Part shown: one piece after another, positions 26,041 to 29,209 of the stretch
How positions within the stretch are numbered: position 1 is the stretch's first letter
How the letters are laid out: each line of letters begins with the position of its first letter
Assembly (NCBI GenBank): GCA_949282255.1
Contig: CASDPA010000018.1
Location: 1-40,164 of the forward strand
DNA: 40,164 nt
Source of the DNA: an uncultured Spirochaetales bacterium
Lineage (GTDB): Bacteria; Spirochaetota; Spirochaetia; Sphaerochaetales; Sphaerochaetaceae
Reading direction: 5' to 3'
Translations under genes and position numbers: made by a program
Notes under the pieces: model-generated
Seen by the model: only the letters and a program-made list of their open reading frames with translations
Database searches by the model: none
What the model was told of the DNA's origin: nothing

Positions 26041-26079
26041 CGTCGCATAATATTTGGTTTTCAATTGGTTTTGGTAAGA

Positions 26080-27285
26080 ATGAAAAAGAATCTTGAATTG
26101 AGAAAAGTCGGAATCAATGATTTCGAGCAATATAATGAACTGCTGAAATATGTATTTCAGGTAACTTATAACAAGCTGAATCTGATAGGCTGGCAAGAGA
26201 AGGAAATGAAAAAGGCCAAACAGCCGACACTTGAAAAAGCGGATGTAATAGGATGGTTTGACGATGGCCAGCTTGTCAGCCAGGTCGCAGTATATCCGAT
26301 GCACGTGAGAATCTTCGGGCACACATATTTCATGGGAGGCCTTACAGGAGTAGGCACTTATCCCGAATATTCCAATCGTGGATTGATGAGCAAGCTTTTG
26401 AAAAGGGCCTTGGAAGACATGAGAAGCAGGGGTCAGCATATCTCATATCTCTTCCCCTATTCCATTCCTTTCTATCGGAAAAAGGGATGGGAGATAATTT
26501 CCGACAGAATCGAATATGAGATACAGGACTTCCAGCTTCCGAAATACCAGGAGGTGGATGGCGAAATACAGAGGGTGCAGATCAATGATAAGAAGCTGCG
26601 TGAGGCCTACCAGCGGTATGCAATGAGAACGCATGGGGCGCTGCTGCGCGATGATCTGGCATGGAACGAGTATTTCTTATGGGACAGTGACGATTTGATG
26701 GCGGCGATATATTACAATGCCAACGGAGATGCCGATGGATACATAATCTATTGGATCAGCGACGACATCTTCCACATAAAGGATATGATACATCTCACCA
26801 GAGAGGCGCGTATCGGGCTGTGGAACTTCATCAGCGCCCATTTTTCCATGATAAAAAGTGTTGAAGGATATACCTATACCGACGAGCCGCTGGCATTCTT
26901 GCTTGAGGATGCAAACATCAAAGAAACGATCTGCCCCTACTACATGGCAAGAATCGTTGATGCAGAACGCTTTATCGCCGAATATCCTTTCAAGCCGGAT
27001 ACGGAAAACCGGGTATGGGAATTCAATCTTTCAGATCCGCTCTTATCCTGGAACCAAGGATCTTTCCGCCTTGAGATAGGCAAGGACGGGAAAGGAAGGC
27101 TTGAAAGGATCAGGCAAGCCTCTTCAGACCGGATAGACATACAAACGCTTGTCACAATGCTTTTGGGCTATAAGAGACCTAAATACTTGAATAAGATAGG
27201 CCGGCTTGAGGTGAATGAGGACATACTGAATATGCTTGAGGATTCAATATCTCAGCAGGTGCCATATTTTTCAGATTATTTCTGA
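26080..27285 (+). CDS. Eis-like GNAT N-acetyltransferase
   Basis: This 401-residue protein has the three-part layout of the Eis family: an N-terminal GNAT domain, a second GNAT-like domain and a C-terminal SCP2-like fold. The acetyl-CoA site is in GLTGVGTYPEYSNRGLMSKLLKRALEDM (around residues 88-115), and the family segment YLFPYSIPFYRKKGWE follows. The C-terminus ends FSDYF, consistent with the Eis terminal carboxylate used as general base. Known Eis proteins acetylate aminoglycosides or other amines; the substrate here is not predictable. ATG 26080 is taken rather than an upstream TTG at 26065. The gene is convergent with the candidate small RNA and the Fe-alcohol dehydrogenase. Confidence 0.85.
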   Translation: MKKNLELRKVGINDFEQYNELLKYVFQVTYNKLNLIGWQEKEMKKAKQPTLEKADVIGWFDDGQLVSQVAVYPMHVRIFGHTYFMGGLTGVGTYPEYSNRGLMSKLLKRALEDMRSRGQHISYLFPYSIPFYRKKGWEIISDRIEYEIQDFQLPKYQEVDGEIQRVQINDKKLREAYQRYAMRTHGALLRDDLAWNEYFLWDSDDLMAAIYYNANGDADGYIIYWISDDIFHIKDMIHLTREARIGLWNFISAHFSMIKSVEGYTYTDEPLAFLLEDANIKETICPYYMARIVDAERFIAEYPFKPDTENRVWEFNLSDPLLSWNQGSFRLEIGKDGKGRLERIRQASSDRIDIQTLVTMLLGYKRPKYLNKIGRLEVNEDILNMLEDSISQQVPYFSDYF

Positions 27286-27301: not shown

Positions 27302-27414
27302 AAAAAAATTGTGGTACGAGATGTGCAATGGCTTTTACAAAGGAGTCCTCGTACCACAATTCAGCTTAACTAACAGGGAACTAAAAGAGGGAGATATATG
27401 TTTGTTTAAGCTAA
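27302..27414 (-). ncRNA. Candidate small RNA with two anti-Shine-Dalgarno loops
   Basis: Read on the minus strand from about 27414, TTAGCTTAA (27414-27406) pairs with TTAAGCTGA (27369-27361) to close a 36-nt loop containing ATCTCCCTCTTTTAG. The next base begins a perfect 13-bp stem (27360-27348 with 27320-27308; 14 bp with flanking A-T) around a 27-nt loop containing ACTCCTTTG, followed by a run of Ts, i.e. an intrinsic terminator. An extended -10 promoter lies exactly upstream. No ORF of note is inside. The C/U-rich loops are complementary to GGGAG and AAAGGAG ribosome sites, as in trans-acting regulatory RNAs. No known family was recognised. Confidence 0.5.
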
Positions 27415-27420
27415 CTTAAT

Positions 27421-27447
27421 AGTATATCAAAAGACATATTTATGCAA
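27421..27447 (-). promoter_or_regulatory. Promoter of the candidate small RNA
   Basis: On the minus strand TGATATACT (27429-27421) is an extended -10 element, with TTGCAT (27447-27442) as a -35 at a short 15-bp spacing. The predicted start, near 27414, coincides with the first base of the first stem. Confidence 0.45.
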
Positions 27448-27510
27448 GCATTTTCTCAATTCATTTTGAAAAAATTGCAAAAACAATCATAAGAGTTAGC
27501 TTGACCAAAT

Positions 27511-27539
27511 AAATAAGAGCGGCATGACCGCTCTTATTT
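27511..27539 (-). terminator. Terminator of the Fe-alcohol dehydrogenase gene
   Basis: AAATAAGAGCGG-CATGA-CCGCTCTTATTT is a perfect 12-bp stem directly after the minus-strand stop codon. A/T-rich outer arms allow function in both directions. Confidence 0.8.
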
Positions 27540-27542
27540 CCA

Positions 27543-28730
27543 TTAATAGCTTTCACTCAATATAGTCAGGATATCTGAGATTCCTGCATTTCTTGGATTG
27601 ACTATAAGCGCACCATCATTCACCGCCCTTCGTGCAATCTGCTCAAAATCAGACTTATTCACCTTGGCATCCCTGAGCCGGGTGTTTATTGGAGCAGCGG
27701 CCTTTATGCCATCTATGAAAGCACACACAGCCTCGACTGTTTTCAAAGCCCTATCTTCCTCTCTTGTTTTGGCATAAGCATCATCTCCGGCGATATGCAT
27801 CAAAAGCTCCGAATAATCCTTTTTGGCATAATCAAGATTATAACGCAAGCAAGCAGGAAGAAGAATTGTCATCGCCTCCCCATGAGCAACGGAACATGTG
27901 GCTCCAAGGCTGTGCCCGATGGCATGGACAATCCCAACCATGCTATTTGAAAATGACGAACCGGCTATGTAGGCGGCATTGGCCATGGCAAGACGCGCTT
28001 TCTTATCCTTTGGATTGGCTATAGCCTGTGGCAGATACTCTACAATGAGTCTTATAGCGGCTATTGCGTAACTCTGGCTGACAGGATTCTTTTGCAGGCA
28101 GGAATATGCCTCAATCGCATGGGTGAAGGCATCAAGCCCGGTAAGAGCCGTGATGCGTGCGGGCATGGAAACAAGCAGGCGTGTATCGAGAACCGCAACA
28201 TCCGGCAGCAGGAACGGAGAGATGAATTCAAGCTTGAACTTTCTTTCATCATCCTTGATCACCGCCACACCTGTGGCTTCGCTTCCTGTCCCGCTTGTGG
28301 TCGGAATGGCGATGAAAGGAACATGCACGCCCCTTGGCAACGTCTCGCAGCCCGCATAGGAAAGGATATCTTTTCCACCTTGGCTTATGAGCATCCTCAA
28401 TCCTTTTGCAGTATCAAGGACAGAGCCTCCTCCAAGAGCTATTATTGAATCACAATTCGACTGCCTATATATCTTCGATATCTCATTTACGACTGTTATG
28501 GACGAATCAAGCGGCACATCGGTAAAAAGGGAGGCAAAGGAAATTCCACCTTTCTTGAGCGCCTGACGCAGGATATCGACAGATCCTATCTTTTCCAAAG
28601 TCCGATCAGAAAGGACCATCGGACGGGAAGAACCCAGAAGCTTCATCTCGGAAGCGATGTTCTCCAGCGCGAATTCTCCGCTGAGAAGCTTTGCCGGATT
28701 CACAAATTCAAAATATGACGGAATATGCAT
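27543..28730 (-). CDS. Iron-containing (group III) alcohol dehydrogenase
   Basis: This 395-residue NAD(P)-dependent enzyme interconverts alcohols and aldehydes or ketones, as in fermentation. The N-terminal nucleotide domain holds the family GGGSVLDTAKGL motif, and PFIAIPTTSGTGSEAT follows. Metal ligands appear as Asp and His in GLDAFTHAIEAY, then His in HAIGHSLGA and in VAHGEAM, so the iron site is complete. ATG 28730, seven bases after AGGAG, is chosen over a TTG two codons earlier. It starts 2 bp after the stop of the SCP2-like gene, forming a two-gene operon. The specific substrate is not evident. Confidence 0.9.
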   Translation of the reverse strand: MHIPSYFEFVNPAKLLSGEFALENIASEMKLLGSSRPMVLSDRTLEKIGSVDILRQALKKGGISFASLFTDVPLDSSITVVNEISKIYRQSNCDSIIALGGGSVLDTAKGLRMLISQGGKDILSYAGCETLPRGVHVPFIAIPTTSGTGSEATGVAVIKDDERKFKLEFISPFLLPDVAVLDTRLLVSMPARITALTGLDAFTHAIEAYSCLQKNPVSQSYAIAAIRLIVEYLPQAIANPKDKKARLAMANAAYIAGSSFSNSMVGIVHAIGHSLGATCSVAHGEAMTILLPACLRYNLDYAKKDYSELLMHIAGDDAYAKTREEDRALKTVEAVCAFIDGIKAAAPINTRLRDAKVNKSDFEQIARRAVNDGALIVNPRNAGISDILTILSESY

Positions 28731-28732
28731 CT

Positions 28733-29209
28733 TCAAACTCCTAAGAATGTCATTGCATAAACCCTGAGGCTGCTCATCTGCTTTTTGGGCACCTCTCTCA
28801 ATATCCTTTTGGTCATGATGTATGGGAAAAGATATGATTCGGCTATGTCTATCATCCTAACAAGGGTCATCGTCTGCCCGATATCCCCGGAAAGAGCGAA
28901 ACGGTGTTCAGCGTAAGCTTTGGAAATTCCCATGAAGCCTGTAAATACAAGAAAAGCGGCATCTATGCTCTTGAATGTTATTGCGACATCTGCAGGGCGT
29001 TTTTGCAAGGCTCTGACCAATTTCCCGTTTTCTTTGGCAAAAGTGATGGATCGGCCGTTATCGGAAAGAAAAATCCGCACAGTAAAACCTTCATTGAAAG
29101 ACTCGAAATCCTCCCTTACCCTGCTATCGGATTTTGTGAGCACCTTGAGCGCCCGGTAAAGCACAACAAGAACCACGGAACATATCCATGTCTTAATAAT
29201 AGTTTTCAT
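28733..29209 (-). CDS. Membrane-anchored SCP2-like (sterol carrier) protein
   Basis: This 158-residue protein has one N-terminal hydrophobic segment (about residues 7-22) and a following domain resembling the SCP2 lipid-transfer fold: FTVRIFLSDNGRSITFAKENGKL, PADVAITFKSIDAAFLVFTG and FALSGDIGQTMTLVRMIDIAESYL. SCP2 domains bind lipids or acyl chains. It is first in an operon with an Fe-alcohol dehydrogenase, so it may present a hydrophobic alcohol or aldehyde to that enzyme. The ATG at 29209 has no clear ribosome site and the -10 box ends 8 bp before it. The assignment rests on pattern only and needs a profile search. Confidence 0.6.
   Translation of the reverse strand: MKTIIKTWICSVVLVVLYRALKVLTKSDSRVREDFESFNEGFTVRIFLSDNGRSITFAKENGKLVRALQKRPADVAITFKSIDAAFLVFTGFMGISKAYAEHRFALSGDIGQTMTLVRMIDIAESYLFPYIMTKRILREVPKKQMSSLRVYAMTFLGV

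Follow-up and report, generated by a model that had tools for sequence, protein, structure and literature searches.

A conserved small RNA gene in Ornithospirochaeta with a putative metalloregulator operator and predicted pairing to iron-sulfur protein mRNAs

The window analysed here is a 40,164-nt stretch of contig CASDPA010000018.1 (assembly GCA_949282255.1) from an uncultured Spirochaetales bacterium. It contains a 257-bp intergenic gap between a convergent gene for a GNAT/SCP2 acetyltransferase (26065-27285, plus strand) and the gene for an Fe-alcohol dehydrogenase (Fe-ADH; 27543-28736, minus strand). The first-pass annotation had placed a small RNA gene on the minus strand of this gap, and the fold (z about -5), the finding of 12 copies and covariation bear this out: the predicted gene (27302-27412, minus strand) would encode an RNA of about 109-111 nt ending within a T run, and both its promoter and its terminator are conserved. 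In particular, the alignment of the 12 copies gives a -35 element TTGCAT (27442-27447, minus strand), with TTG kept at a fixed position in all of them, and, after a 17-nt spacer, a TATAAT-like -10 element TACTAT (27419-27424, minus strand) at a fixed position in most. The extended -10 promoter proposed initially is not upheld, the TG being not conserved, and the positions of the aligned elements move the predicted start from 27414 to nearer 27412-27411. A perfect 12-bp inverted repeat with a loop of five bases lies 3' of the Fe-ADH gene (27511-27539) and is a probable terminator setting the sRNA unit apart. The Fe-ADH gene is adjoined by a gene for a 158-aa protein (28733-29209, minus strand), which is also present in related loci holding Fe-ADH and had no match in a Pfam search.

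The predicted RNA consists of two hairpins, the second abutting the first directly, as originally described. Hairpin 1 (27361-27414, minus strand), defined by the fold and by counted pairs, has the stem AGCUUAA/UUAAGCU with flanking pairs, and its loop 1, AUAUCUCCCUCUU, has the seed CAUAUAUCUCCCUCUUUU (27383-27400, minus strand). Hairpin 2 (27302-27361, minus strand) is an intrinsic terminator, whose 14-bp stem is formed by a perfect inverted repeat (27307-27320 with 27348-27361), and a run of seven T comes after it on the minus strand (27308-27302); its loop 2 reads ACUCCUUUGUAAAAGCCAUU (27327-27346, minus strand). Anti-Shine-Dalgarno sequences are present in both loops, as the first-pass annotation stated. 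The 113-nt RNA folds at -29.4 kcal/mol compared with a mean of -14.5 kcal/mol for shuffled sequences (z -5.1), and none of 200 shuffles was as low. Two other identities were ruled out: a repeated element or MITE, since its own genome has only one copy of the element, and a small plus-strand ORF reading AAAAGAGGGAGATATATG TTT GTT TAA, since the minus strand is the one that fits the promoter, the conserved loop and the T run of the terminator.

The sRNA was found in 12 of 48 genomes of Ornithospirochaeta, which are gut spirochaetes. A BLASTN search of these genomes yielded nine copies besides that of the window, and a covariance search of the related genomes, which had been suggested with the initial annotation, recovered two more, in G039 (E 4.9e-13) and G037 (E 0.02 with the first model). 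The G037 copy has the same kind of promoter, anti-Shine-Dalgarno stretch and terminator loop, and scores higher, as expected, in a model built with it included. No convincing homologue was found beyond the genus: the one candidate of the family search (G067, E 0.009) has neither the promoter nor the loops, and a GTDB pattern scan had matches only in Spirochaetales records (n=9). In Rfam, whose sRNA families include RyhB, FsrA and 6C, only a tRNA was matched over the window at the gathering score, and at E <= 10 no match overlapped the RNA on its own strand.

The structure of the RNA is well conserved. Among ten sequences, 98.1% of the alignment cells are paired and five pairs have changed on both sides; among 12 sequences, the values are 95.2% and seven. 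Neither covariation value was reached in 500 shuffles (counts that, the sequences being related, should not be read as probabilities), and both lie far above slid controls. The double changes are mostly in the terminator stem, where six of the 14 pairs have changed on both sides among the 12 species; hairpin 1 has one such change and, in the G041 copy, a 5'-arm insertion of 4 nt with its match on the 3' arm. Loop 1 itself is almost invariant over most of the 12 species. The RNA thus shows compensatory stem changes beside a conserved loop, the pattern that the first-pass annotation had named as support. The terminator stem of G020 is largely different (GAGGCAGGGG/CCCCTGCCTC), with the loop kept. 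The G037 copy departs from the common structure: the fold of its 5' end is GUUAGC-AUUA-GCUAAC, with the anti-Shine-Dalgarno stretch placed between the hairpins.

The sRNA occurs in at least five gene neighbourhoods. In most genomes it lies downstream of Fe-ADH, with a varying neighbour on the other side; in G038, G020, G039 and G037 the whole neighbourhood is different. This bears on the possibility that the element acts only in cis, as a terminator plus operator or as an attenuator of a neighbouring gene, and yields no free RNA, a reading suggested by the frequent position behind Fe-ADH and by the fact that one part of the element is a terminator. However, the element has its own promoter and is separated from Fe-ADH by the hairpin described above, its other neighbour in the window is convergent, and its surroundings differ between genomes, which makes a role in cis unlikely; we consider this explanation extremely improbable.

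The sequence at the start site, beyond what was noticed initially, is also a conserved DNA operator. The 16-bp element GTTAGCTTAAACAAAC (27400-27415, minus strand), a degenerate palindrome GTTAG-N6-CTAAC overlapping the start, is conserved in the 12 copies (in G041 as GTTAGCTTAAGAAAAC); it corresponds to the first 16 bases, with the consensus GTTAG-N6-C(T/A)AAC, and its ends match as GTTAG/CTAAC in G020 and G037. Alignment and repeats indicate a possible second, half operator, GTTAGCTTGACCAAAT on the plus strand (27494-27509), about 80 bp upstream of the sRNA start and only in the three closest genomes (G000, G044 and G040). The classical DtxR/IdeR box, TTAGGTTAGSCTAACCTAA, is 19 bp long and has GTTAG and CTAAC one base apart. 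The best alignment to this box leaves 4 of 19 positions mismatched, and the conserved half-sites are six bases apart instead.

We searched eight genomes with the operator pattern. Since the total counts are no higher overall than those of a reversed control, the argument for the operator rests on the location of the sites and on finding them repeatedly in front of the same genes. The operator precedes feoB and a divergent DtxR-family gene in G022, G027 and G008, and feoB without a dtxR gene in G000, G044 and G040 (L253, 2158-2436; L276, 2352-2682; L244). It is also found before a DUF3793-flavodoxin pair in G000, G040, G008, G022, G027, G039 and G020, often as two sites about 100 bp apart, and further sites lie in front of TetR genes with paired ABC exporters, genes for a pyruvate formate lyase (PFL) and a peroxiredoxin, and a region that includes a P-type ATPase and ferritin. 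The CAAAC variant of the sRNA operator recurs at flavodoxin and feo sites. The sRNA promoter thus appears to carry an operator common to feoB, flavodoxin and exporter genes. No perfect GTTAGN6CTAAC site exists in 400 kb of sequence sampled from G000 in stretches, of which two were picked for candidate targets and the rest regardless of content, and the relaxed form occurs once in these stretches and the window, at the sRNA itself. The flavodoxin operator is also present in G006, where the RNA was not found; the regulon therefore probably predates the sRNA.

Two features of these sites deserve mention in their own right. In all cases seen (L236, 2946-4034; L239, L240, L242, L248, L250 and L277), DUF3793 comes with a short flavodoxin and the pair has one or two operators, an arrangement that would link the DUF3793 family to iron limitation. 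On contig 12 of G000 (positions 1-30000; L234, L235), seven GTTAGN6CTAAC sites within 30 kb surround TetR-plus-twin-ABC-exporter units, PFL, peroxiredoxin, ferritin and P-type ATPase genes, and the region is apparently an iron-response island.

The presumed regulator of the operator is the DtxR-family protein, as suggested by the adjacent dtxR genes in three genomes. The G008 protein matches the Pfam domains Fe_dep_repress (E 3.6e-12) and Fe_dep_repr_C (E 4.7e-14), and in G000, the genome of the window, a 40%-identical MntR/DtxR-like homologue is encoded at C3:12806-13186 (L210), with no operator nearby. We infer that the metal sensed is iron. It could be manganese, because the NCBIfam models place the DtxR-family proteins nearer to MntR, at scores below the equivalog cut-off; moreover, TroR of T. 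denticola responds to manganese and iron alike (PMC2628430). A true conserved trans-acting sRNA might accordingly answer to another metal or redox signal, for example manganese via an MntR/TroR-like protein, and Fe-S genes might be only part of its targets, the start sites scanned being a sample. However, an operator at feoB and flavodoxin/DUF3793 and near ferritin marks a typical iron-limitation set, and we regard a signal other than iron as rather unlikely.

Loop 1 is predicted to pair with the ribosome-binding site of the [2Fe-2S] ferredoxin/[FeFe]-hydrogenase mRNA and, more weakly, with that of an mRNA for a DUF362 protein with 4Fe-4S domains. The ferredoxin was exposed by a search for AGAGGGAG-spaced-ATG restricted to the three closest genomes, all of which have the same extended match, AAGAGGGAGATATCAGT(T/A)ATG, before the gene for an 82-aa thioredoxin-like [2Fe-2S] ferredoxin; the gene for an [FeFe]-hydrogenase large-subunit/PAS protein follows, and a Rex-like gene lies upstream. 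Comparison of the ferredoxin orthologues of 23 genomes revealed the loop-1 complement in the RNA-bearing genomes and TAGGAG-type leaders in nine sister-group genomes without the RNA. Uninterrupted Watson-Crick pairing between the ferredoxin leader and the genome's own loop 1 extends over 9-13 nt in 11 of the 12 RNA-bearing genomes: 13 bp in G044, G000 and G040, 12 in G027, G046, G041 and G008, 11 in G020, 10 in G022, and 9 in G038 and G039; in G037 it is 7 bp. In the 11 genomes where the RNA was not found, the leader pairs over only 4-7 nt with the loop of G000, and duplex energies largely separate the two sets. In the two divergent species G020 and G039 the loop (UUACUCCCUCUUU) and the ferredoxin leader (AAAGAGGGA) have changed together.

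The DUF362 leader is complementary to loop 1 in most of the RNA-bearing genomes, reading AAGAGGGAGAAATATG in G000 and G044, GGAGAGATATATG in G022, G046 and G008, and AAGGGAGTA in G020, whose RNA reads UACUCCC; the pairing is weak in G041, G037 and G038, and the gene was not found in G039. When 458 start sites of G000 were ranked, DUF362 came second and the ferredoxin seventh, and so was not the single best; the sample comprised the 400 kb, the window and the regulon stretches, with both candidate-bearing stretches fetched on purpose. The rplI gene was set aside as a target, its AGAAGAGGGAGATGTATG matches in G008, G027 and G046 falling inside apparent coding sequence.

An anti-Shine-Dalgarno loop fits any purine-rich Shine-Dalgarno sequence, and several unrelated starts score equally well in one genome. 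The complementarity to the two leaders might then be a coincidence, and the structured RNA might have other targets or bind a protein. Yet the pairing runs beyond the Shine-Dalgarno core (GAUAU) and follows the occurrence of the RNA among 23 genomes, and the changes in G020 and G039 are paired; coincidence thus seems very unlikely to us. Of the initial proposal that both loops of a trans-acting sRNA are aimed at ribosome-binding sites, the part concerning loop 1 is supported, as complementarity to two conserved sites follows the RNA, and for loop 2 no target is established.

In a midpoint-rooted tree of Rex, ferredoxin, hydrogenase and DUF362 proteins, in which the target genes themselves were used, all RNA-bearing genomes together with G001 and G034 form one group, apart from the nine RNA-free genomes (support 77-100, of which the 77% at the key split is modest). 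In principle, a clade-specific leader could reflect shared ancestry, not selection. The ferredoxin leader of G001 and G034, AAAAGGGAGAAC, is intermediate, part-way to the paired form. These two small genomes (1.5 Mb) are nested in the RNA-bearing clade, and the RNA was not detected in them (stretches L175 and L174). On balance we lean towards an sRNA family that was born within one Ornithospirochaeta clade under a spirochaete metalloregulator whose operator follows a design of its own (GTTAG-N6-CTAAC), the target leaders having been rebuilt from plain TAGGAG to loop-1 complements. Since a single genus includes known genomes that carry the RNA and others without it, the origin of an sRNA-target pair can be traced directly, and such a history, if true, would be a natural record of an sRNA and its mRNA targets evolving together.

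The sequences show a conserved RNA gene, an operator that it shares with other genes, and ribosome-binding-site complementarity following the RNA across species. These findings are best explained, we hold with reasonable confidence, by an iron-sparing trans-acting sRNA that is derepressed by a DtxR-type metalloregulator under iron limitation and blocks translation of Fe-S proteins. When iron is plentiful, the DtxR-family repressor bound to GTTAGN6C(T/A)AAC over the start site would keep the sRNA gene silent, together with the feoB, flavodoxin and exporter genes. Under iron scarcity it would leave the operator, and the RNA of about 110 nt would be transcribed; its C/U-rich loop 1 would pair with the Shine-Dalgarno region of iron-sulfur protein mRNAs, first of all that of the ferredoxin/[FeFe]-hydrogenase operon and also that of the 4Fe-4S DUF362 protein, and this pairing would repress the target by stopping its translation. 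Such a function would give a reason for the anti-ribosome-binding-site loop noticed at the outset.

RyhB and PrrF of Gram-negative bacteria are iron-starvation RNAs that lower the synthesis of iron proteins and depend on Fur and Hfq. The spirochaete RNA, which has no Rfam match, would follow the same physiological logic. IsrR of Staphylococcus is likewise iron-repressed and conserved within its genus, and its unpaired C-rich regions pair with the Shine-Dalgarno sequences of iron-enzyme mRNAs, as predicted here; it differs in being 174 nt long, with three stem-loops in addition to the terminator, in its three C-rich regions and its Fur boxes, and in its nitrate-respiration targets (PMC9410917), and, given the different phylum, a sequence relation would not be expected. 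FsrA of Bacillus subtilis is also iron-sparing and binds the Shine-Dalgarno sequence through a C-rich motif, but is controlled by Fur and needs the chaperones FbpA/B/C (as described in PMC9410917). MrsI (ncRv11846) of Mycobacterium, like the present RNA, is about 100 nt long, has a promoter site for IdeR, a DtxR-family protein, and represses iron-protein mRNAs; it differs in its six-nucleotide seed, its targets hypF, bfrA and fprA, and its phylum, and its control by IdeR is described as potential or predicted (PMC8628891, PMC9410917). The actinobacterial 6C RNA likewise has two stem-loops with conserved cytosines, but these are six in number and its targets are other (PMC8628891). IsrR, FsrA, MrsI and RyhB would thus be the nearest analogues, alike in working and apparently not members of the same sequence family. 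A search of the open literature gave no record of an iron-sparing sRNA in spirochaetes, and in a review of 2022 DtxR is an iron regulator for which no sRNA had been reported (PMC9294342), although MrsI does have its predicted IdeR site. If our interpretation is true, the spirochaete phylum too makes use of Fe-S economy by sRNA, under a DtxR-type regulator, and the RNA probably evolved independently of the Fur-controlled RNAs.

Finally, loop 2, for which no conserved target was found, has its own pattern of conservation. All 12 copies contain AGCCAUU, usually together with CUCCUU; in G041, where the loop reads UUUUUCUUUG, the anti-Shine-Dalgarno part is lost and AGCCAUU is kept.
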